Part shown: piece by piece, positions 39,913-55,246 of the stretch
How the letters are laid out: each line of letters opens with the position of its first letter
Numbering within the stretch: the stretch's first letter is position 1
Assembly (NCBI GenBank): GCA_003555025.1
Contig: PWHV01000021.1
Coordinates: forward strand, 1 to 55,246
DNA from: Methanomassiliicoccaceae archaeon
GTDB taxonomy: Archaea > Thermoplasmatota > Thermoplasmata > Methanomassiliicoccales > Methanomethylophilaceae
DNA: 55,246 nucleotides
Reading direction: 5' to 3'
Translations under genes and position numbers: made by a program
The notes under the pieces: generated by a model
Seen by the model: the letters and a program-made list of their open reading frames with translations, nothing else
The model's database searches: none
Told to the model about the DNA's origin: nothing

Positions 39913-41139
39913 TCAGCCCTCAAGGAATCCTGAGGAGAGCAACGCTCCCCCCACCGAGCCGATGTACTGCGATCTAGGGGGCACGATGGGCTCCTTCCCG
40001 AGGATATCGCCCACCGCGGTGACCATCCCGGATATCAGCGATGTCCCTCCCACTTGGATGACCGGGTCGCGGACGTCGATCTCCTGCAGCTGCTGCTCGT
40101 ATATCTGCTCGGCGACGCTGTGGCAGGCGGCGGCGGCGACGTCGGCGCGGGTGTGCCCCTCGGCGAGCGATGTCACCAAGTCCTGGATGCCGAACACCGA
40201 GCAATAGGAGTTCATGTTGATAGCGCGCCAATCCCCATCATCGGCCAAGGCGCCGAGCTCGGTCACCTCCACCTTGAGGCGGCGGGAGACGATCTCCAGA
40301 AAGCGGCCGGATGCGCCGGCGCATATCCCGCCCATGGTGAAGTTGTCGGGTATGCCGTCACGAACGGTTATGGCCTTATTGTCCATCCCTCCGATGTCGA
40401 GTATGGTGGCCTCTCCCTGCTGACGCCCGGCGAGCCACACGGCCCCCTTGGAGTTGGTGGTCAGCTCCTCCTGGACCAGCTTGGCGTCCATCTTCTTGCC
40501 GACGGTGTAGCGGCCGTAGCCGGTGGTGCCAATGGCCTCCAGGTCGGACATCTTGAGCCCGGCCTGCTCCAGCGCGTCGTTGAGGGTGGACTCCGCCGAC
40601 TCCAAGACCTCTCCGGACGGGGTCCAGGACATGCCCACGATCTTATTGTCCGCCATTACCAAAGACTTGGTGGTGGTGGAGCCGGAGTCGATGCCGGCGG
40701 TGATGCCGATCTGCCTCTCACGGGCGAGCAGCTCCTTGCGCGACACGATGGTCACCAAGGCCTCCATCCTCGTCAGCAGCTGGTTGGCCTTCATCCTCTC
40801 GGTGAAGGAGTAGGTGACCACCGGCAGGTCGGTGTGCTCCTGGATGTACCTCCGCAGCTCGTTCCTCACCAACGCGCCCTCGGCGCAACGGAAGCAGCTG
40901 GCGATGAACACCGCGTCGGCGTCGTAGCGCCCCTCGGCGAGGTGCACGGCGCGGGCAATCATCAGCTTGAGCTGCGCCGACACCGGTTTGAATCCGAACT
41001 CCCGGATGCAGCGGTCGATCTCCGAGGTCTCCACGTCAGGATGCACCATCTTCGCCCCCACCGAGCGGGAGGCTTTCTCTATCTCGTACTGAACGCCGCT
41101 GTATTCGGTGCCGCAGGACAGCTGGGCTATCTTGATCAT
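39913..41139 (-). CDS. mmp15: Methanogenesis marker protein 15 (ASKHA-type ATPase)
   Basis: A 408-residue protein whose C-terminal two thirds is an ASKHA ATPase of the BadF/BadG/HgdC activator type. The phosphate loop is [12 protein letters not shown], the adenosine motif [12 protein letters not shown]-like (QVGGTSL). The Cys residues of [11 protein letters not shown] and MNSYCSVFG correspond to the ligands of the single [4Fe-4S] cluster that bridges the dimer in HgdC. The N-terminal 140 residues have additional Cys ([10 protein letters not shown]). By analogy it would use ATP to drive a one-electron transfer at low potential, fitting the need to reduce Ni in coenzyme F430. It overlaps mmp5 by 4 bp. 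Confidence 0.92.
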
Positions 41140-41570
41140 TGCAGCCCCTCCAGGAACTCCTTCACCTTTATGACCATGTTGCGGGCCTCCCCCTCCTCAT
41201 GGGGATAGTTTATCTCCAGGGTGGGTATGCCGCGCTTGCGCACCAGGAACTCCACCAGGAGGTTGGTGCGGTGGCATCCCACGCAGCCGAAGCTGTAGGG
41301 GGCGTCTTCCATGATTATCGCCGCTTCGGCGTTGTCTATCAGCGGGCCCCACACCGCCAGGCGGCCGCGGATGCCGGAGGGAACCTCTATGCCCGCATAA
41401 TCAAGACCCTTTTTGACGTCATCGAGGGTCACGTTCATGGGGGGCATGTCTATCTCCAGGTTGTCCACCCTCTCCTGTATGGTCGCCATCACGCTCAGGG
41501 GCTCGTGCCCGAAGCGCTCAACCAGATCGAACAGTATCAAACTGTTCGGGGGATCGATGAATATCTTCAA
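41136..41570 (-). CDS. mmp5: Methanogenesis marker protein 5
   Basis: A 144-residue methanogen-specific protein. The start [22 protein letters not shown] and the Cys/His segment [12 protein letters not shown] followed by [15 protein letters not shown] fit marker 5. The CxxCH set may bind metal. It abuts mmp6 directly and overlaps mmp15 by 4 bp. The biochemical role is unknown; co-occurrence with MCR links it to activation or cofactor handling. Confidence 0.92.
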
Positions 41571-41987
41571 TCACTCCACCTCCTCGCAGATTCTCTGCAG
41601 CTCCTTGACCGGCATCGGCGCGCGGTCATCATCCTCTTCGGCCTCCTCGCCCCGCAGGGCGCATTGCAGGCCCTTCTCCACCAGGGCGAGGTCCTGCCAC
41701 TCTCTCTGCAGCTGGGAGAAGCCGGGGCGTGAGCCGTGCTGTGCCCGGCAGCGGTTCGGGTCCCCCAGCGGGAAGCCTCTGATCTTGGAATAGATGCCCA
41801 GCGGGTCCATCTTTTTCAGGTCGTCCATGACCTCCTTGACCGTCTCCGGAGGCCCTTCCAGCAACGCCCCGTAGCAGGTCTCCTTGACGGTCACCTCATG
41901 ACCCATCGCATAGACCGCCCGGGTTATCTGGTCGGGGGTTATCTCCGAAAGCGGGGATATGACTATCAGCCTAGTCTCCCTCTTCAT
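41571..41987 (-). CDS. mmp6: Methanogenesis marker protein 6
   Basis: A 138-residue methanogen-specific protein. Family stretches are RLIVISPLSEITPDQI, GHEVTVKETCYGALLEGP and SKIRGFPLGDPNRCRAQHGSRPG (in pieces). It is marker 6. It overlaps mmp3 by 17 bp and abuts mmp5. The C-terminus is acidic. Role unknown. Confidence 0.9.
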   Translation of the reverse strand: MKRETRLIVISPLSEITPDQITRAVYAMGHEVTVKETCYGALLEGPPETVKEVMDDLKKMDPLGIYSKIRGFPLGDPNRCRAQHGSRPGFSQLQREWQDLALVEKGLQCALRGEEAEEDDDRAPMPVKELQRICEEVE

Positions 41988-43503
41988 CGTTGCTCTCCTC
42001 CTTCACGTAAACGGTCTGGCCCTCTTTGAGGCCGTCCATTAGACGGTCGATGTCGTCGGCGAACCTGCCCACGATGTTGGTCCCGTAGGGCTCCTCGCCG
42101 GTGGGTCCGTATTCCTTGCTCCCCTCCAGCCTTATGCCGATGAGGCCGGCGTGCGGCCGCACCTGGTTGGTTATCCCGATATGCCCTCTCTCGGAGGCGC
42201 TGAATTCGTTCTCCGGGTACAGCGACTTGCCCCTATCGTTATCCCCCTCGAATGTCACCATCGGCAATCCCTTGAAAGTGAAATGGACCTGTAGCGACCC
42301 CACCGGCTTATGGTCGAGGCCGGTGACCCTCTCCAGGTAGCGGACGGTGGAGGCGGCGTTCTCCCTGTCCATGCGCAGGATGAATATATCCTTCGACCGG
42401 GCGCCGAAGGTGACCGCCTTGCCCCCTTTCAGGGCCTCTATGGTCATCTCCGGGGTTTGATCCACGATCACGGCGTCATCGGCGGTGTCGCCCTGACGCT
42501 CCTGCTCAATGCCACGGCCGGATAGGAACTCCTCTCCCTCCGACTGCGTCATCCCCACCGCGAGCGCCCGCTCCGGACGGGTGAGCACGGTGAGCCTTTG
42601 GCCGTTCTCCGCGAGCATGAGCAGCGTGCTCCCCTGCGCCACATTCCCCACCTTCGTGTGCTGGTCGGAGTTCTGCCTTCTCCTCTTGTAGAGGTATATC
42701 CTGCCCGCTCCGCGGCCCTCGGTCCTGACGGTGACGTCCATCTCCTGGCGGACGCCGGTGATGCCAGGGTCGATGTCCTTGCTTAGGTTATCCGAGCAGG
42801 AGATGAAGGACTCGGTGCGCTCGGTGACGTTGAGCACGCCGTTGCGCAACGTCACCAACAGGTGCTCGGCGCCCATCGCCGAGGAGGTCTCCAGGTCCAT
42901 CGTGACATGGCTCTCGACGGCCATGCCGTCATAGAGGACCGCGTCCATGTCCTCGGTGTTCTCGGCGTTCTCGCTGGAGGTCTCCTGGACCAACGGGCGG
43001 ATCTCCTTCACGCTCTCCCCCTCCTTTATCTTGTCGAGGAGGTGCCTGCCCCAGGTGACCTTGCCCACCCTTCCGCCGCCGGCGCCGTAGCGTCCGCGGT
43101 GATCGTGCTTGCTGAACATGAGATATGTGGTGTTGCTGTCGAAGCCGCCCAGGGAGAAGAAGACGTCATAGCGTCGGCGCATGTGCAGGCCCTTGTCCAC
43201 GGGGATCTCGGTGGGGAAAGAGCCCATCGCCATGACCTTGGAGGTGTTCCAGCGCACATTGTTGCCCACCAGCGAGTCGAATAGCCCGCGCCATAGATCG
43301 GCGTCGGGGGAGTCATCGACCTTGATGCACATCGTCCCCCTCTCGAAGACCAGCTCGTACTCGTTTGTCCTCTGCTCGGCGAGCTCGGTCGATATCAGCA
43401 CCGACACGGCGGTGCCTGGATGATGGGGCTCGCCCTTCAGCACCTCGCCGAGAGTGCTGCCTTCGGGGAACTCCCTCTCCGTGCCGTTGACCTTGATCTT
43501 CAT
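41971..43503 (-). CDS. mmp3: Methanogenesis marker protein 3
   Basis: A 510-residue methanogen-specific protein. The N-terminus MKIKVNGTEREFPEG is ubiquitin/ThiS-like beta-grasp in look, then repeated beta-rich domains follow (SLGGFDSNTTYLMFS, VTFGARSKDIFILRM, GHIGITNQVRPHAGLIG). It matches marker 3, a peptidyl-prolyl-isomerase-like family by name. To my knowledge, marker 3 occurs in the MCR activation assembly. It begins 19 bp after mcrC. No enzymatic motif is visible. Confidence 0.93.
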   Translation of the reverse strand: MKIKVNGTEREFPEGSTLGEVLKGEPHHPGTAVSVLISTELAEQRTNEYELVFERGTMCIKVDDSPDADLWRGLFDSLVGNNVRWNTSKVMAMGSFPTEIPVDKGLHMRRRYDVFFSLGGFDSNTTYLMFSKHDHRGRYGAGGGRVGKVTWGRHLLDKIKEGESVKEIRPLVQETSSENAENTEDMDAVLYDGMAVESHVTMDLETSSAMGAEHLLVTLRNGVLNVTERTESFISCSDNLSKDIDPGITGVRQEMDVTVRTEGRGAGRIYLYKRRRQNSDQHTKVGNVAQGSTLLMLAENGQRLTVLTRPERALAVGMTQSEGEEFLSGRGIEQERQGDTADDAVIVDQTPEMTIEALKGGKAVTFGARSKDIFILRMDRENAASTVRYLERVTGLDHKPVGSLQVHFTFKGLPMVTFEGDNDRGKSLYPENEFSASERGHIGITNQVRPHAGLIGIRLEGSKEYGPTGEEPYGTNIVGRFADDIDRLMDGLKEGQTVYVKEESNDEEGD

Positions 43504-43522
43504 ATCTCAGCGTCCTCCGTGA

Positions 43523-44134
43523 TCACTCCCGGGGGATCATCGACTGTATCTTGGACACTATCTCGTCCAGCTTCTCCTGGCTGCAGGTGACGCCTCGCAC
43601 CACGCCGGTGACAATCTCCACTATCTCCCCCTTGGTATCGATGTCCTCCTCCCGGGGCATGACCATCCGGGTCTTGACCCCGATGGCGGCGAAGTCCTCG
43701 TAGTCCACCGGGCACTGCGCCACCACCATCGCCGGGATGTCAGAGTTGCGCAGGATCAGCCTCGCCTTGTAGATTATGTGCTTCCTGACGTTGCCCAGGT
43801 GAATGAGTGCCACCTTGAATTGCTGGATGCGGGCGGCCTCGATGGGGTCGAGGCCGAAGTAGGAGCCGGTGCTGACATCGGGGGCGTCGGCGGGAACCCC
43901 CGAGCCGGCGTTTATCACTAGCACGCTGGTGTCTATCCCCTCCTCCCGGAGGGCATAGGTGATCTCGCAGACCGGCTTGGTTATGTGCCTGCGCCCCGGG
44001 CCCATTGCGATGGCGACGACATCGCGTCCGCTCTCCGATATCGTCGCTCGGGCGGCGAGGCCGCCTCCAGTGCCCAGGCCGCGTGACTCACGGCACTCGA
44101 CAAAGCTGAGATGCCTACCGATTCGCTGTTTCAA
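43523..44134 (-). CDS. mcrC: Methyl-coenzyme M reductase operon protein C (McrC)
   Basis: A 203-residue McrC. The N-terminal [19 protein letters not shown] with glycine-rich loop, then [24 protein letters not shown] (in pieces), [13 protein letters not shown] and the C-terminal [18 protein letters not shown] are diagnostic. McrC binds MCR and is needed for its ATP-dependent activation. In many methanogens mcrC lies between mcrD and mcrG; here it has moved into the activation operon next to component A2, with 4-bp overlap. Conserved Cys residues may hold Fe-S clusters. Confidence 0.95.
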
Positions 44135-45756
44135 GCTGAGCCACCGTCTTTGAACTCGTCCAACTTGCCATGCTCCGTCAGATATCCGACGATGTCATCG
44201 GGGGTCCCCTCGAATACCACCTCGCCGCCCTCCATGAGGGCGACCCTGTCACAGCAGTTCATGACGAAGTCCATATCGTGGCTGACGACTATAAACGTTT
44301 CACCCAGGTCCCGACGGGAGTCGACGACGGCCTGCGCGACCGCCATCTTGGTAATGGGGTCCATGGTACCGGTGGGCTCGTCGAGGATGATTATCCTTGG
44401 CTCTTTGATGAGGACCTGGGCGAAGGCTATCCTCTGCTTCTCGCCGGTACTGAGCTTCTCCGGGTAGGAATAGAGGATTCTCTCTATGTCCCTATCCGGG
44501 AATCCAGCGCTGCGCAGGACCTGAATGGCCTTGACCTTGGCGAGCTCCGCCGGCATCTTCATGCCGATGCAGGTGGTTAGGTTCCTCAGAATGGTGTCGA
44601 AGGGATAGAGGGTGTACTCCTGGTGAAGCATGCCTATGTAGGGCGTGGCGCGGCCCTTGCCCGCCTCCCCGGTCACGGACATGTCGATGAGCTCATCGCC
44701 GATGTTGATCTCCACCTTGCCATCGGTCGCCGGGGTTATGCCCGCTATCATGCGCGAGGTGGTGGTCTTGCCGGCGCCGCTCAGGCCCACCAGGGCGAAT
44801 ATCTCTTTCTCCATTATCTCCAGGTCGACGCCGTCTACCGCCTTCACCACGCCGCGGACCACGGAGAAGAAGTACTTCTTGGCGTTGGTGAGCTTGATGA
44901 TCGGTTGTCCCACCTCCACATCCTCGCTGCGCACGAAGTCGTACTCCTGCATGAACTCCTCGACTATGGTCGCCGGGTCGCCGATGTCCTTGACCTCGCC
45001 GGCGTCCAGCCATAACGCCTCCTCTGCCATCTTCTCTATGGCCTCCGGCCAGTGCGATGTCACCACCAGGCCGATGTTGTCCTCCTTCACCGTTCGCACC
45101 AGGGTGTCATGGACCATCTCCGCGGTCTGCGGGTCCAGGGTGCCGGTTGGCTCGTCCGCCAACAGTATGAGCGGATCCTTGGCCAACTGGCGGGCGAGGA
45201 CGATGCGCTGCTTCTCACCGCCGGAGAGGTCCCTGGCGATGTGGGTGGTACGGTGAGTCATGCCCACCATCTCCAAAAGCTCGATCGCCTTCTCCACCAT
45301 CTTGTTCTCGCCCATCCTGTCGCCCAAGGCCTCGAAGAGGTTCTCGATGACGGTCTTGTCCCCGAAGAGGGCGAAGGTCCTCTGCAGCATGATGGCGATC
45401 CTGTTGCGCACCGCCTGTCGCAGCGGGTCCCTCTCGTCCAAGGACCAGAAGTCGACCTCTTCCAGAACGGTCTCGTTGCCGCAGACGTGGCAAGGTTGGC
45501 CCTCATAAGGAAGGTCCACCCTCTGGCAGGATTCGCAGTAGTTGACACGGTAGATGATGCTACCCTCGTCGGGGAAGTAATCCTTGGAGCCGCGCAGCAT
45601 GTGAATGAAGACCGACTTGCCCGCCGCGCTTTTGCCTATGAGACCCAGGGGTTTCCCGGAAACTATGGTGGTGGACAGGTTGTCCAGGACCTTGTTCCCA
45701 TCGAAGGATTTGCTAACACCCTTAACGATAATTAAAGGTACTGGCTCAAGAGTCAT
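44131..45756 (-). CDS. atwA: MCR activation component A2 (tandem ABC ATPase)
   Basis: A 541-residue soluble protein of two ABC ATPase domains. First: Walker A GKSAAGKS (41-48), signature LSGGEKQR (177-184), Walker [12 protein letters not shown]. Second: GLSGAGKT (324-331), LSTGEKQR and [11 protein letters not shown]. In the first domain an insert has two Cys pairs, C74/C77 and C89/C92, probably zinc. Component A2 supplies ATP hydrolysis for reduction of the MCR Ni center. It leads the operon; its promoter (reverse strand CTTTTATAAT at about 45782-45790) faces the DUF4443/2111 gene. An AAAGGAACA ribosome site precedes the ATG. Confidence 0.95.
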
Positions 45757-45855
45757 GATGTTCCTTTAACGGTTAGTCCGATTATAAAAGTTGTCTAATC
45801 AAGTGTTTAGTGGTTGCACACAGGTTTTATAACGCTGGATGGTATATACATCCAT
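45757..45855. promoter_or_regulatory. Divergent promoter region of atwA and the DUF2111 regulator
   Basis: This 99-bp interval has a leftward TATA (CTTTTATAAT, reverse strand, about 45782-45790) for the MCR-activation operon and a rightward TATA (GTTTTATAACG, about 45823-45832) for the regulator. A 9-bp palindrome TAACGGTTA is at 45767-45775 in the atwA leader, and a GTTGCA at 45813-45818. A longer palindrome precedes the regulator ATG. Confidence 0.6.
45836..45854. promoter_or_regulatory. 19-bp palindrome TGGATG-N7-CATCCA, candidate operator
   Basis: Perfect 6-bp arms (45836-45841 and 45849-45854) flank GTATATA, directly before the ATG at 45856. As the mRNA is probably leaderless, the palindrome covers the transcription start, where a bound winged-helix protein would block initiation. 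Autoregulation by the adjacent gene is inferred. Confidence 0.5.
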
Positions 45856-46821
45856 ATGCCTCCCTCCTTGTACAGGGACGACAGGCCTGGCGGACCCATA
45901 CCGAAGTTCTCTGACTATCATATCTGGAAATGCCTCAAGATCATCTCCGCCTCCGGCCCGGTGGGGAGGAAGAGCCTGGCCGTCGACCTGGGCATCGGCG
46001 AGGGCAGCACCCGCACCATCCTCGACCGCCTCGTGGACGAGAAACTGGTGGACGTCGGCCGCAGCGGCGCCCACCTCACCCGCCGAGGAAAGGAGGTCAT
46101 GAGGAGCTCGATGATCGAAGTGCGTCCGGTGGAGGACCTGGGAGTCAGCATAGGCCGCTGCAACGTGGCGGTGAGGGCCCCCAACAGCGCCCACAGGTTG
46201 AACTACGGCTGCGAGCAGCGGGATACCGCCATCAAGGCCGGCGCCCAAGGGGCCACCTCGCTGTTCTGCCATGAGGAGCGGGTGTACTTCCCCGGCGACC
46301 GGCAGCCGGTCGCTCCCGATGTCGAGTCGGGGCTGAGGAGGCACTTCAAGATCAAGGACGGCGATGTTCTCATCGTCGGCACCGCCAGCGATTTCGAGCG
46401 CGCCGAGGAGGGCGCCGTCACCGCCGCACTGGAGATGATCGGGCAGATGCGGTGCCGCAAAACGCTCAGCGACATCCTCTCATCTTCGGGGGAGTCGGAC
46501 GAGCTAGTGAGCCTGGCGCTGGCGATCCACGAGCTCATCGGCAGGCTGCCACTCTGCGCCCGTAGCCGCGACCGCCTGGGAGTCAGGATAGAGGACGGCA
46601 AGGTGATAGACCATGCCTACACCGGCCCCATACTGGAGGAGGTGCTCCGCCAAGGGGCCACCATAAGGATGAAGTCCACCTCCGGCCCCTACAGCGGCAT
46701 ACCGATAATCGCCGTTCCGGTGGAGATTGACGAGAGGGTCATCGCTTCCATCGGAGTTGTGGACATCACCAAGGGGGCCGTGTTCGAGATGATAGAGCGT
46801 ATGAGGAAGGGGCTGAAATGA
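45856..46821 (+). CDS. Winged-helix protein with DUF4443-like N-terminus and DUF2111 C-terminus
   Basis: A 321-residue predicted methanogenesis-linked regulator. Residues about 15-85 (FSDYHIWKCLKIISASGPVGRKSLAVDLGIGEGSTRTILDRL, in pieces, then LTRRGKEVM) form a winged-helix as in DUF4443. Residues about 95-210 may bind a ligand. Residues about 225-318 are DUF2111, restricted to methanogens: LAIHELIGRLPLCARSRDRLG, YTGPILEEVLRQG and IIAVPVEIDERVIASIGVVDI. The ATG at 45856 is leaderless by TATA position; a TTG at 45814 is unlikely. It diverges from the MCR-activation operon and is followed by a DUF6951 gene with 4-bp overlap. DNA binding and sensing are inferred. Confidence 0.85.
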   Translation: MPPSLYRDDRPGGPIPKFSDYHIWKCLKIISASGPVGRKSLAVDLGIGEGSTRTILDRLVDEKLVDVGRSGAHLTRRGKEVMRSSMIEVRPVEDLGVSIGRCNVAVRAPNSAHRLNYGCEQRDTAIKAGAQGATSLFCHEERVYFPGDRQPVAPDVESGLRRHFKIKDGDVLIVGTASDFERAEEGAVTAALEMIGQMRCRKTLSDILSSSGESDELVSLALAIHELIGRLPLCARSRDRLGVRIEDGKVIDHAYTGPILEEVLRQGATIRMKSTSGPYSGIPIIAVPVEIDERVIASIGVVDITKGAVFEMIERMRKGLK

Positions 46822-47141
46822 CCGTGACGCTAGAGGTTGACTCCGGCGCATGCCAGATAAGGACAGTCATCCGAGCGAGGGAGGAGGGCGACCGCATTAA
46901 GCTCGACATCGAGAGCGACTGCCCCATGGTGAGGAGGCTGGCGTCCGAATTGAAGGACCTCGACCCCATGGATTGCATCATCACACCGCTCTCCAAGAAC
47001 CCGGTTATATGCGCCGCCGACGACTGTATCAAGCACGCCTCCTGCCCTGTGCCCACCGCCATAATAAAGGCCGCCGAGTCCTGCTGCGGCCTGGCGGTCA
47101 AGAAGGATGTGAAGATGAGTTACTCTTCGTCCTCGATGTAA
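46818..47141 (+). CDS. DUF6951-type Cys-rich methanogen protein
   Basis: A 107-residue protein: VDSGACQIRTVIRA, IESDCPMVRRLASEL, then CAADDCIKHASCPVPTAIIKAAE and SCCGLAVKKDV. The spaced Cys residues (about eight) suggest metal or cluster binding. I recall this conserved domain as DUF6951 in methanogens, though that number is from memory. Its ATG overlaps the end of the DUF2111 protein by 4 bp (ATGA), so both are co-translated. It converges with, and overlaps by 22 bp, the carboxymuconolactone-decarboxylase-like gene on the other strand. Role unknown; likely coupled to the regulator. Confidence 0.75.
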   Translation: MTVTLEVDSGACQIRTVIRAREEGDRIKLDIESDCPMVRRLASELKDLDPMDCIITPLSKNPVICAADDCIKHASCPVPTAIIKAAESCCGLAVKKDVKMSYSSSSM

Positions 47142-48939: not shown

Positions 48940-50595
48940 TCACTCCATTATGACGGCTGTCCGCTCGCCGGCGGGCTTGAACTCCCTGAGTCCACCACGA
49001 CCGATCTCCTTGGTGATGTTCGCGAAATCGAACACCAGCGCGGGGTCGGCGAAGGCCACCTTGATCAAGGGGTTCGCGACGAAGGCGTCCCCGCGCGCAG
49101 CGTGGGCGGCCTTCGGTATGCCCGTGTAACCGGACAGGTGACCGACGTTCATGGCGTAGTTGGGGTAGTTCGGGCCCCTCAGCTCCATGGGCAGACCCTC
49201 GTCCGACCTGTAGGCCAGCGAGTTGCAGGAACCGCACTGGTCCTGCAGGTCGTATCCGTAGAAGCCGAGCCTGCCTGTCCTCTCCTTGTGCTGGAGCATG
49301 GACAGGTACCACAGGTTCACACCGCAGTCAGCGTTACCGGTCGCGAACGATCCGGCGATGCCGCTGGCGGCAGCGGCCACGGTCGCCCTCTGGGATCCAC
49401 CGAAGTGGGCCTCCATGGCGGCCGGGTATCTCTCGTACATCTCGAGGGCGTAGGTGTTGACCTCGTCACCGAGTTCCATCAACTTGTCGAAGTCGTTCGG
49501 GTCCATGTTGGTGAGCCCGCCGTACTTGTCGTTGATGATGTCGATGGCGGTGTAGGTATAGTCCTCGAGGATGTTGTCGGTGTAGGCAGCGGTGGAGTAC
49601 TGGGTGAAGCCCACTCCGCCGGACATGTATCCGCCCAGGTAGATCTGGTCGTAGATCACGGCGCCCAGGGCGACCGCCTCGAGGGCGGCGCGTCCGGGGT
49701 CGTCGGGCTTGACCCTGTCAGACTGGATGGTGTCAGCCATCACACCGAAGGGTATGCCTCCGGGCTCGTTCGGGCCCCTGGCACGCCTGGCGGGCATCAT
49801 CGTACCCATGTTGATGCTCATGTGCTTCGCGGCATAGGCGAAGTCGGCGATCGCCGCCTCACCGGCAGCCAGCTTGTAGGAGCTGATGAAGGCCATGGAG
49901 ATCTGCATGGCAGACCAGCGGGAAGTGGTCCCGCCGTCCATCACGCGGCCCACAATGGTGGGCACCCTGACGGCCTGCCAGAGGCTGTTCCCGATCGCCT
50001 TCTTCAGCTGCTCAGCGTGGTCCTCGTTGAAGAGCTTGTTGATATCGAGACAGTATGCGTCATCGATCTCATCCATGAGCTCGTCGTTGCCGCTGTACAC
50101 CTTGACGTACGAGTCGTAGGCCAGGGCGGGGTTGATCTCCGCCATGTGCTCCTGAACGACAGCGCCGCCGGGCATGGTGTGGTTGACCGTCTCGAGATAG
50201 TGGTTGATGGTCTCAGGAGTGACCTCCTTTCCCAGCCTCCTCTCGATGGTCTGATGGGGTGAGTCCAGTCCGACCAGCACAGTCCTCCTGATGTCGTCCC
50301 AGGCCTGCTGCATCGCCGGGTTGTTGATGCAGTGCAGGTCGTCAGGCTCGACATATGTGTCAGTGTGGGACAGCTGATAGGGCATCCAGTTCCTCTGTCC
50401 CAGAGGAACGCCGATGTCCTGGTTCATCATGGGTATGCCGCGCTCTTTGGCTATCTTGTTGGCGGCGTCCACGAACTCCCTCTTGCGGGCGGACTGCTTC
50501 CATCCACCGAACTGATAGAACTTGGTGTTCACATCGGTGGGTTCTTCCTCGAACTTCTTCTTACACGCCTCGATGAATAGTTTCTCTTTTGCCAT
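48940..50595 (-). CDS. mcrA: Methyl-coenzyme M reductase alpha subunit
   Basis: A 551-residue catalytic subunit that, with McrB and McrG, makes methane from methyl-coenzyme M and coenzyme B at Ni-F430. The F430 axial Gln is near Q148 (VVQEHM). Y333 (GGVGFTQY) and Y446 line the site. Positions modified in other methanogens are present: His258 (AAKHM), Arg271 (ARRARG), Gln402 (GSQRA), Gly447 of YGYDL (thioglycine), Asp452 and Cys454 (DLQDQC). One residue fewer than I recall lies between the His and Arg. Three bases separate it from mcrG, and GGGGGTG precedes the ATG. It is the defining gene for methanogenesis. Confidence 0.99.
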
Positions 50596-50598
50596 TGT

Positions 50599-51372
50599 TC
50601 ACACCCCCTTTACCTTGAAGGGCTGGAATCCAGCGAGGGTCCTGAGCTTGTGTATCCTCAGGCCGTACATGGTCACCTCGGCGTCGTCCCTCATCCCCAC
50701 GCCGTCGGCGCGGAAGATAGTGGTCCTCTCCTTCAGATCCTTCATATCGGCGGGCTTGCCGACGGATATCCTCCTGTCGAGGGGCAGGGCGACCTGGTCC
50801 TTCACGTAGACGACCTCGCCCTTGTCGGCGTCCCACTCGTACCTCTGCCAGGCGTCGAACATCATGCCATTCTCGTCGAGACGGCAGGCGTGACCGTGGA
50901 CGGTCGCGCCCCTGATGCCGGTCAGGGCAGGGTCGAATGTCTCGTTCTCTATGAGTTCCTTGGCGAGGACCTCGAGGTCCCTCTCCCTCATCTCGATGAT
51001 CTGCCTTCCGGACAGGGTACCGGTGTCGATACCACGGAAACGGGACAGATACATCCAGGCCCTCTGATAGGGCGATATGGGGGCGAAGTAGACGGAGTCA
51101 GTGAACTGAACGTACCTGACCCTGTCACCCTTCTTTGCTCCCTCGATGGGTTCCACCATCTGCCTTATGGGGCAGTCGGGCTCGTTACCCTCCTCAACGG
51201 GAGGGTGCATGGACTTGTAGTCCTCTCCGGGCTGGCGGTGACCGAGAATACGTACAACGTCTTCCATTGCCACTTCTCGGAGTTTCTTCAGGTTCTCCTT
51301 GGGATCCATGTACCTGCGCCTGTTGACGGCAGGGGTCGTGGTTCCAGGATAGAACTGTCTCTTGTAAGCCAT
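50599..51372 (-). CDS. mcrG: Methyl-coenzyme M reductase gamma subunit
   Basis: A 257-residue gamma subunit. The start [21 protein letters not shown] is typical, as are [41 protein letters not shown] and [14 protein letters not shown] (in pieces), and [11 protein letters not shown]. It completes the active-site channel with two other subunits. The ATG at 51372 has GAGGTG seven bases upstream; an ATG-less extension to 51381 (MLE) lies in the mcrD tail. It follows mcrD by 2 bp and precedes mcrA. No mcrC lies between mcrD and mcrG, unlike in many methanogens. Confidence 0.98.
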
Positions 51373-51374
51373 TT

Positions 51375-51815
51375 CTAACACCTCAATCCTTTCAAATAAT
51401 CAGTCAAGGTCGGACGATATTTCGTGTACCTTCCAATCTCCAGGTCGTATCCGAACGGTATAAGCTCATCGCAGACCTCGCGGATCTGCTCCACCGTCTC
51501 CTCCACGGCGTCGTGGCTCTCCAGCTCGAGGAAGAAAGAGCCCACCATCATGGTGAGCTCCACCTCGCTCTCGCCGAACTTGATCGCCTTGCGCTCGGGG
51601 TGGTTGACGGGTATCCCGGTGTTGGGGCCGGTCTTCACGGTGACGGGCAAGCCCTCGCCGTGGATGTTGATCTGCCTCACATTGGGGATTTCGTACAGAC
51701 CGTTCAGCACCTTCTCCGTCGTCTCAGCTTTGAGCAGACGGTTGGTGAATACCTTCACTTCGGGGAGCGGTTCCCCAGCGTAGCTTGTCCTGGAGGTGGA
51801 GGTCTTCAACATCAT
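51375..51815 (-). CDS. mcrD: Methyl-coenzyme M reductase operon protein D
   Basis: A 146-residue McrD. Marks: [52 protein letters not shown] (in pieces), [15 protein letters not shown] and [16 protein letters not shown]. McrD associates with MCR apoenzyme and may act as an assembly chaperone. The mcrB TGA overlaps the ATG at 51815 (TGATG); a GTG at 51818 is also possible. It precedes mcrG by two bases. Assignment is firm from motifs and order. Confidence 0.97.
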
Positions 51816-53149
51816 CACACCTTGTCCTTGATCTTTTTCGCCTCCTCGCCGACAACCTGCAGTGGCTGTGAGAACTCACGCAGCCCACCGAAGACGTCGC
51901 TGATCAATCCGGACGTGGCCTCAGCCGAGAAGGTCTGAGTTCCGCCGTCCAGGCAGTTCGCTGCGGTAACGGCCGGTATCAGCACGCCCTTGGAGTGCTT
52001 GGTGACCACGTGGTTGCCGTGGAACAGACCAGGCCCTCCGCCACCATAGATGGAGTGGCTGAAGAAGGACATACCGACACAGGTACCCATCGCCCTTCCG
52101 TAGTCAGGCGAGGGGAGTCCGGTCTCGTGCTCGAGGATGTCTCCGTAGTACAGCACAGTGGAGGGCACACCCTGGGCGGCCCTGGCGGCTCCTACGTTGA
52201 CCATCACGGCGGCGACCATTCCAGCGGAAGCATATGCGTTCCACATGTCGAGGTCGTCGGTGGTGTACACCTTGTATCCGGACTTCAGGGTCTCCTTGAC
52301 CTTGATGACCTTGTCCTCGATGGCCTTCTCCATCAGGGACTCCACAACGGTGCCCACGGTACCGGTCTTGCCGTTCTCTTTCACCATGTCGTAGACCATG
52401 TTGTTAGCGTTAAGCCCCTGGTACGCGAGAGCGAGCAGGTGGCCCCTCTCGAAGGGACCGATCGCATCGCCCATCTCGAAAGCGCCCAGCTGCTCGAACA
52501 GCGAGGACAGGGCCACGCCCTGCATGGCGTTGCGGCCCACCAGGGCCACGACGTGGTTGGACATGATGTTCCTAAGCGCGTAGCCAGCACCCTCGTTCTT
52601 CTGGGGGACCTCAAGAATGCTCTTGATGTTCGCGCCCATGAAGTCGAGGCTCTGCGGGTATCTGCCCCACACGGAGCCCTTCACCATGTTGGCCTTGTGC
52701 ATCGGGATGTCAAACTCGTCGATGATGGCCTGGGTGGTGGCAGCGGCGACGGCGGTGAAGCCGGTTGTGTATTCGACTCCCGCCTGCAGTCTCTCTTCAG
52801 GCACAACGACGACGATCTGTTTGCCGTCTCGCATTACCTCGACGACGGTGTCGTCACCGTTGGTTACCTGGACCATTTCCTTAATAGCTTTTGCGACTTT
52901 GTCCGCATTGGCCACGATCGGTGCATCGATCTCCTTGCCCTTGATTACGCAACCGTCCCCGCCCATCGTTCCAGTCTTGAGAGACTTCTCGATTCCGGCG
53001 AGGTTTATGGCCACGGTCCTCTTGGTCATGGAGGCGATCTTCTGAATCGCGCCATTTCGCAACGGACTGATGGCTTCCAATGGCAGTTTGCTCTCGATGA
53101 GCTTGCCACGGTCGTCATACAAGTCTATTACGTCCTTGTATTTTGCCAT
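51815..53149 (-). CDS. mcrB: Methyl-coenzyme M reductase beta subunit
   Basis: A 444-residue beta subunit. The N-terminus [19 protein letters not shown] and the F430/coenzyme-channel block [28 protein letters not shown] (in pieces; Tyr near residue 372) with [17 protein letters not shown] are diagnostic. It leads the operon mcrB-mcrD-mcrG-mcrA-DUF2098. A GGAGGT ribosome site lies six bases before the ATG. Transcription starts probably about 80 nt upstream, giving a structured leader. Length is normal. Confidence 0.99.
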
Positions 53150-53174
53150 TTATTACCTCCGTATCTTTTTCTGC

Positions 53175-53217
53175 GACGGGCGGAATATAACGTAAGCAAC
53201 GCTACGTCTCACCCGTC
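53175..53217 (-). promoter_or_regulatory. Structured mcr 5' leader hairpin
   Basis: Within the predicted mcr leader, GACGGG (53175-53180) pairs with CCCGTC (53212-53217), and inside it ACGTAAGC (53190-53197) pairs with GCTACGT (53201-53207) with a bulged base and loop AAC. The nested stem lies about 25 nt before the mcrB ribosome site. Its regulatory role, if any, is inferred. Confidence 0.45.
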
Positions 53218-53235
53218 GGTCCCCTTGCGTTTGCT

Positions 53236-53250: not shown

Positions 53251-53260
53251 CCATATAAAC
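53251..53260 (-). promoter_or_regulatory. TATA box of the mcr operon
   Basis: On the reverse strand GTTTATATGG lies about 100 bp before the mcrB ATG. The expected start is about 53228-53232, leaving an 80-nt leader. The next AT-rich stretch at 53320-53360 could hold a second, upstream promoter. Confidence 0.65.
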
Positions 53261-53265
53261 TAATT

Positions 53266-53287
53266 GATGGACGCCTCATCCATCCAT
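53266..53287. promoter_or_regulatory. GATGG-N9-CCATC element upstream of mcr TATA
   Basis: GATGG (53266-53270) and CCATC (53280-53284), followed by CATG, lie immediately upstream of the mcr BRE/TATA. The TGGATG/CATCCA-type sequence (CATCCA occurs at 53277-53282 and 53281-53286) resembles the palindrome before the DUF4443/DUF2111 gene. An activator site is possible. Confidence 0.35.
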
Positions 53288-53384: not shown

Positions 53385-53405
53385 ATGGACGTACTGTGCG
53401 TCCAT
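53385..53405 (-). terminator. Hairpin after ycaO, possible terminator
   Basis: ATGGACG and CGTCCAT form a perfect 7-bp stem with loop TACTGTG. On the reverse strand it lies 11 bp beyond the ycaO stop and is followed by TTTAAATA. It could end ycaO transcription before mcr. ATGGACG recurs at 53267-53273. Confidence 0.4.
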
Positions 53406-54677: not shown

Positions 54678-55142
54678 TCAGCGGTTGTCCCGTTGGTATA
54701 TCTTGATGTCGGAATTGGGGTCCACATCTATCCTCTCCACCAGGATGTCGACCTCCACGTTGTAGATGTTGGCGATGACCAGGAAACGCTCCTGTATAAG
54801 CTCGTACAAGGAGTCCACAGAGGATGTGAAAAGCTCCACCACGATGTTGTGGTCCCCGAAGGACTTGTAGATGTTGGCCACCTCCGGGAACCGCTTCAGC
54901 TCCTCGATGACGTTGTGCACCGAGGACCCGATCACCTCGATGGATAGCAGGGCGCGCATCAGGTTCAGCTTGGAGGGGTTGACCTCCACCGAGTACCCGG
55001 TTATCACCCCGTCCTTCTCCATCCGGGAGAGGCGCCGTGAGACGGTGGCCTTGGAGATCCCCAACTGCTCCGCTATTAAACCCATGCTCACCCGTGAGTC
55101 GCTCCGCAGGCATCTCAATATCTCGAAATCTTTTGAATCCAT
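54678..55142 (-). CDS. Lrp/AsnC-family transcriptional regulator
   Basis: A 154-residue Lrp-type protein. The N-terminal MDSKDFEILRCLRSDSRVS and the helix-turn-helix IAEQLGISKATVSRRLSRMEKDG (residues about 24-46) are typical; the C-terminal half (residues about 60-154) is the RAM ligand domain with GDHNIVVELF and FLVIANIYN. The ATG at 55142 is chosen by family length; an ATG at 55181 extends over the operator palindrome. It precedes ycaO by 40 bp on the same strand and may control ycaO and mcr. Palindromic and repeated GTTGCA sites lie upstream, suggesting autoregulation. Confidence 0.92.
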   Translation of the reverse strand: MDSKDFEILRCLRSDSRVSMGLIAEQLGISKATVSRRLSRMEKDGVITGYSVEVNPSKLNLMRALLSIEVIGSSVHNVIEELKRFPEVANIYKSFGDHNIVVELFTSSVDSLYELIQERFLVIANIYNVEVDILVERIDVDPNSDIKIYQRDNR

Positions 55143-55153
55143 ATCATTATTTT

Positions 55154-55168
55154 TGCAACACCGTTGCA
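55154..55168. promoter_or_regulatory. 15-bp palindrome TGCAAC-ACC-GTTGCA, candidate Lrp operator
   Basis: Perfect 6-bp arms sit 12 bp upstream of the lrp ATG. A further half-site GTTGCA at 55204-55209 lies about 40 bp away, an arrangement like multi-site Lrp binding. Role in autoregulation is inferred. Confidence 0.5.
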
Positions 55169-55246
55169 TATCCCCCTTCAATATTCATGGGATATGATAC
55201 TTTGTTGCACAAAATACTTGAGATTATTAAACTTTGTCGTAATAAA

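Follow-up and report, generated by a model that had tools for sequence, protein, structure and literature searches.

The window (the whole stretch of 55,246 nucleotides analyzed here) carries a gene of 321 codons on the forward strand (45856-46821), whose product combines a DNA-binding winged helix with DUF4443 and DUF2111. The gene shares a 99-bp intergenic region with a divergent operon encoding A2, McrC, Mmp3, Mmp6, Mmp5 and Mmp15 (39913-45756, reverse strand). The initial annotation of the locus took the protein for a dedicated, autoregulated controller of methanogenesis. Which promoters may this protein control, through which sites and in which direction?

Domain make-up and start of the regulator gene

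The proposed joining of a winged helix to DUF2111 is borne out, since all Pfam domains of the regulator pass their cut-offs. A CggR-type winged helix (CggR_N) covers residues 25-83 (E 3e-11, 43.2 bits against a cut-off of 30), DUF4443 (PF14544) residues 99-195 (E 5e-25, 87.7 bits against 27) and DUF2111 (PF09884) residues 224-305, over its full 83 positions (E 9e-31, 106.1 bits against a gathering cut-off of 27). The PH0730-like N-domain is matched as well. The full-length AF2 model (pLDDT 83.8) resembles both PH0730, which consists of a winged helix-turn-helix and DUF4443, and the operator-bound DNA-binding domain of CggR; the winged helix superposes on DNA-bound CggR (7oyk) with an rmsd of 0.8 over 64 residues. 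The recognition helix, GEGSTRTIL, is almost invariant among 36 aligned orthologs.

When compared to known families, the regulator resembles PH0730 (PDB 2P8T; E 1.4e-26 over residues 13-194) and short DUF4443 paralogs, which have the same winged helix and DUF4443 but lack DUF2111, have no known target and end after DUF4443, at about 200 rather than 321 residues. It shares the N-terminal winged helix with CggR, the bacterial glycolytic regulator, but differs in operator and organism group, and the C-terminal sugar-phosphate-binding domain of CggR/SorC is absent from its Pfam scan. Fold matches recall the IclR plan of a winged helix and a GAF-like sensor; however, the TM is low (about 0.2), neither the IclR HTH nor the IclR effector domain is matched in Pfam, and the regulator has an additional DUF4443 in mid-protein, so that the likeness is one of fold only. 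The Pfam scan also returned no match to the AsnC HTH and RAM domains of the Lrp/AsnC family, nor, at E<=0.01, to the DNA-binding (PF01978) and effector (PF11495) domains of TrmB.

Upstream of the gene, a TATA box, TTTTATAA, occupies positions 45825-45832 on the forward strand. It is followed after 3 bp by the candidate operator TGGATGGTATATACATCCA (45836-45854), a perfect TGGATG-N7-CATCCA palindrome with the spacer GTATATA that ends 1 bp before the ATG at 45856 and is the single exact match within the window. The leaderless start suggested earlier is plausible because this TATA box would place transcription initiation at or near the ATG. A TTG at 45814 is a possible alternative start, and the positions of the TATA box and of the palindrome favor the ATG. 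On the other side, the stop codon (46821) is overlapped by a DUF6951 gene (46818-47141, forward strand), which adjoins the regulator in many orthologous loci and is probably co-transcribed with it.

Recurrence and position of the palindrome

The palindrome TGGATG-N7-CATCCA has 64 matches in 41 genomes of the order and none for the reversed control pattern, which is itself a palindrome. It occurs only twice in the 1.41-Mb genome that contains the window. The relaxed pattern TGGAYG-N7-CRTCCA has six exact matches there, four of which lie in promoters: one at the regulator gene, two at mcrB and one at a corrinoid-protein operon. The other two (C24:3790 and C26:30283) fall within ORFs and have GC-rich spacers; like ORF-internal matches in relatives (for example G026:C9 and G027:C93), they were counted as probable chance. 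The core common to the operators is TGGAT-N9-ATCCA, whose count far exceeds that of its control, and across 96 genomes the control of TGGAY-N5-ATCCATCCA matches just twice. With 2 matches in 41 genomes, a symmetric GGATGGA-N5-TCCATCC pattern proved too strict and was discarded.

The mcrBDGA operon, a proposed target, occupies positions 48940-53149 on the reverse strand, with the start of mcrB at 53149; its McrB product matches solved structures of MCR beta subunits. The proximal candidate operator, TGGATGGATGAGGCGTCCA (53268-53286, reading on the reverse strand), precedes the TATA box of mcrB, TTTATAT (53253-53259, reverse strand), at a distance of 8 bp, which is an activator position. The distal one, TGGACGTACTGTGCGTCCA (53386-53404), lies 100 bp farther upstream and is found also in the congener G005 and, with 1 mismatch, in G001 and G004. 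One-mismatch matches to the original palindrome had drawn attention to this region, and both sites are exact under the relaxed pattern. Of the 34 mcrB promoters usable across the order, 16 carry an operator with at most 1 mismatch, and in 15 of these 16 the distance to the TATA box is conserved at 8-9 bp; most gut genera lack the mcrB site. The mcrB leader (53150-53231, reverse strand) ends with GGAGGT, and its start, GCAAGGGG, is shared by nearly all of the 34 genomes under comparison and by the mtaC leader of G020 (L129). Many mcrB leaders contain an apparent hairpin of variable sequence, and RNAalifold returned no consensus structure for the gut-family set.

The fourth promoter site lies just beyond the window, at position 6630 of contig C5. 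It precedes an operon that encodes, in this order, a corrinoid protein, a hydantoinase-like protein, a URO-D/MtaA-type methyltransferase, a RACo-type activator and a DUF169 protein. The corrinoid protein is B12-binding, and its best NCBIfam match, pyl_corrinoid, is under the cut-off. Since the right end of the window (55037-55246) is repeated at the left end of C5 in the same assembly, the corrinoid operon is probably located about 6.6 kb to the right of the window; the overlap suggests that the two contigs are adjacent in the genome. At this promoter an operator with no more than 1 mismatch is present in 27 of 29 usable cases, and in each of these 27 genomes the distance from the palindrome to the start of the TATA-like element that follows it is exactly 8 bp.

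The arrangement at the regulator's own gene is the opposite one, with the operator downstream of the TATA box, in a repressor position. Conservation of the palindrome upstream of orthologs, put forward earlier as a check, was found in 25 of 36 ortholog copies (0-1 mismatch), and in 22 of these 25 the operator is preceded, at 4-10 bp, by a TATA-like element. The own-gene site is missing in genera g2, g3, g6, g7 and g9, yet all of them keep the corrinoid-promoter site (0-1 mismatch). In genome G027 the regulator is present in two diverged copies (L085 and L029), and the palindrome is kept solely at the copy beside A2.

These positions also bear on the possibility that the palindrome belongs to the core promoter or to the mRNA and is not the operator of a transcription factor. 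Its closeness to TATA boxes and start codons is in keeping with such a role. However, it lies upstream of the TATA box, and hence is untranscribed, at mcrB and at the corrinoid operon while it lies downstream at the regulator gene, and it is absent from the same genes in genomes without the regulator, which makes this explanation extremely improbable.

The gap of 99 bp to the divergent MCR-activation operon is as annotated, with the A2 ATG at 45756. We considered this operon as a direct target and dropped it, because the distance between the palindrome and the A2 TATA box is not fixed and the gap ranges from about 99 to 290 bp; the operon is a putative target at most. The description of the protein as a dedicated, autoregulated controller of methanogenesis fits well as regards operators at its own gene, at mcrB and at the corrinoid operon, the latter two of which the initial annotation had missed, but not as regards direct control of the A2 operon.

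Further sites were found in relatives near mtaC/mtaB and other corrinoid proteins with URO-D methyltransferases, near genes for the B12-dependent ribonucleotide reductase nrdJ, cobD-like, cbiD, cbiF and CfbC/NifH-like proteins, and near a cobaltochelatase-like ATPase, including one in the window's own genome (G000:C16:7433). In G015 the palindrome upstream of mtaC also precedes a TATA-like sequence, and two mtaC genes of G020 have operators nearby. Some of the families encoded by these genes match below curated cut-offs, and several other matches fall within ORFs or close to unrelated genes. The theme of the extended sites may be corrinoid and tetrapyrrole chemistry together with MCR.

Candidate binders of the palindrome

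Orthologs of the regulator are distributed throughout the order (90 of 96 genomes). G032 and G035, two members of genus g20 that are both 99% complete, have no match to PF09884, and the corrinoid-mcr cluster of both is devoid of operators. The clusters keep the corrinoid protein, the methyltransferase, Mmp1 and mcrBDGA, and in G032 also DUF6951. Both genomes have one-mismatch candidates at mcrB, but these fall within the presumed leader, downstream of the TATA box, and were therefore not accepted. In three congeners (G381, G382 and G383) the DUF2111 gene is present and the corrinoid operator is kept. Gene and operators are therefore jointly absent within one genus while the target genes remain, and the joint absence may represent one evolutionary event. 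Two draft genomes, G034 and G040, have operators and no detected DUF2111, and they are incomplete (88% and 73%, respectively).

The same two genomes of g20 lack the cluster copy of an AsnC/Lrp-type regulator, which is why this protein is the main rival for the palindrome. In the window its gene (54678-55181, reverse strand) lies upstream of the Mmp1 (YcaO) gene and has TGCAACGGTGTTGCA at its start. According to this alternative, the palindrome would be the operator of the neighboring AsnC/Lrp protein, and the DUF2111 gene, mcr and the corrinoid operon would all be under the control of that protein. All 15 examined loci with a corrinoid operator indeed have the AsnC/Lrp gene, placed between Mmp1 and the methyltransferase operon, and archaeal Lrp activators bind just upstream of the BRE, at a tightly constrained position (PMC2995911). 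On the other hand, the regions upstream of the AsnC genes in the loci examined contain no TGGAT palindrome, and about half of these genes start with a different palindrome, TGCAA...TTGCA. In addition, four genomes (G009, G015, G016 and G020) have no AsnC gene at the position beside mcr, yet their DUF2111 gene retains the operator, which G015 and G020 have also at mtaC. We consider this alternative unlikely.

A short paralog, composed of the winged helix and DUF4443 without DUF2111, could also be the actual binder, with the DUF2111 protein only modulating it or competing with it. The short paralog is encoded in most genomes of the order and has the same DNA-binding fold. Against this, it is present in G032 and G035, where the operators are lost, and its recognition helix differs (GEGSMRRII versus GEGSTRTIL); moreover, in the genome of the window there is no palindrome within the 6 kb surrounding its gene. 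Such a role is thus very unlikely for the short paralog. Its gene (L050:968-1552 in G000:C27, 194 aa) lies 4 bp behind a gene for an S-adenosylmethionine-synthetase-like protein, of which it is a possible regulator.

DUF2111 as a putative sensor

DUF2111 was described in the initial annotation as restricted to methanogens, and this held among the genomes searched. Within Thermoplasmatota the domain is found in 30 of 150 genomes, all of this order; in the phylum of Methanosarcina 96 of 197 genomes have it, and among 14 control genomes it occurs only in M. jannaschii and M. acetivorans. The domain model built with 41 relatives (pLDDT 87) has as top PDB matches almost exclusively PAS/GAF/Cache sensors (probability about 1.0, TM 0.4-0.6), with weak Foldseek E-values of about 0.0017-0.02; a PDB search with the DUF2111 sequence alone gave chance matches only.

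The domain company points in the same direction. Methanosarcina has DUF2111-PAS-PAS-GAF proteins, as read from their sequences, and a stand-alone DUF2111 gene adjoining an mtd-like gene; in archaeon NM3 (L163:1000-3249), a stand-alone DUF2111 gene lies in an mmp6-DUF2111-mmp5-mmp15 arrangement. These contexts, together with the predicted fold, support the sensory role proposed earlier and the assignment of DUF2111 as a PAS/GAF/Cache-like sensor. Three of the Methanosarcina multidomain proteins (L170, L171 and L172; about 505-543 aa) have no obvious output domain. At 39 loci from other genomes the alignment to the regulator is limited to the DUF2111 part, with the exception of L169, which is a member of the order, and the fusion to a DNA-binding protein therefore appears order-specific in our sample.

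The proposed regulon and its direction

Taken together, the regulator is likely to be a ligand-responsive factor that activates the corrinoid operon and, in many lineages, mcrBDGA, and that represses itself. We infer that it binds the palindrome as a dimer, at TGGAT-N9-ATCCA and typically at TGGATG-N7-CATCCA. When bound just upstream of BRE/TATA it would activate the corrinoid-protein/CoM-methyltransferase operon, with mcrBDGA as a further target in many lineages; when bound between its own TATA box and start codon it would repress its own gene. DUF2111 would supply the signal, which is probably some small metabolite shared by methanogens; our guess is a CoM-thiol or a corrinoid-linked compound.

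We proposed an autorepressed activator because the operator positions match the site rule of TrmB-type regulators. TrmBL1/Tgr of the Thermococcales activate from sites upstream of BRE/TATA and repress from sites downstream of it (PMC4158304). Like the regulator, they combine an HTH factor with an effector domain and use a single palindromic operator, and the scheme fits the operator positions predicted here. They differ in motif (TATCAC-N5-GTGATA) and in their sugar-metabolism regulon, and the regulator, without a TrmB Pfam domain, would work alike without being a member of the family. Ptr2, a Lrp-family activator of Methanocaldococcus, also has its site just upstream of the BRE but has a Lrp fold, whereas the regulator is not Lrp-type. 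The signs could also be inverted, with the regulator repressing mcr and the corrinoid genes or acting as a roadblock at other steps. The direction in the preferred explanation is predicted from operator position. Archaeal factors do not usually repress from directly upstream of the BRE (PMC4158304, PMC2995911), and we regard the inverted scheme as hardly probable. An autorepressed activator of methyl-dependent methanogenesis therefore remains the most likely role of the regulator.

A broader scenario is more tentative, and we consider it possible rather than probable. DUF2111 could be an ancient sensor, specific to methanogens, of a metabolite central to methanogenesis, either the CoM/CoB thiols or a corrinoid-linked signal, that operates elsewhere as a stand-alone protein or within PAS-PAS-GAF sensors. 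Its fusion to a DNA-binding protein in Methanomassiliicoccales would have created a master switch tying MCR, corrinoid methyltransferases, the B12-dependent ribonucleotide reductase and B12/F430 synthesis to this signal.

In the literature searched, no paper was found that mentions DUF2111, DUF4443 or PF09884, and no description was found of a dedicated transcriptional regulator of mcr in methyl-reducing methanogens. The only candidate regulator of mcr transcription that we found is IMPDH VII (MTH126) of Methanothermobacter, which by its description is set apart from the regulator as related to inosine-monophosphate dehydrogenase and belongs to another order (PMC3087415). Comparative genomics of the order described clustered methanogenesis markers in 2014 (PMC4153887), and a term search of this paper turned up nothing on a regulator that acts on the cluster.

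If correct, our reading would provide the first predicted methanogenesis regulon with base-level operators in a widespread gut and wetland order, and would assign a function class, that of a sensor, to a methanogen-specific domain of unknown function. It would also provide a short list of promoters for direct tests of binding, direction and ligand. The regulator is a strong candidate for a switch that governs methane production in the order, and one that can be tested; any ligand able to switch mcr would be of importance to methane physiology and mitigation.
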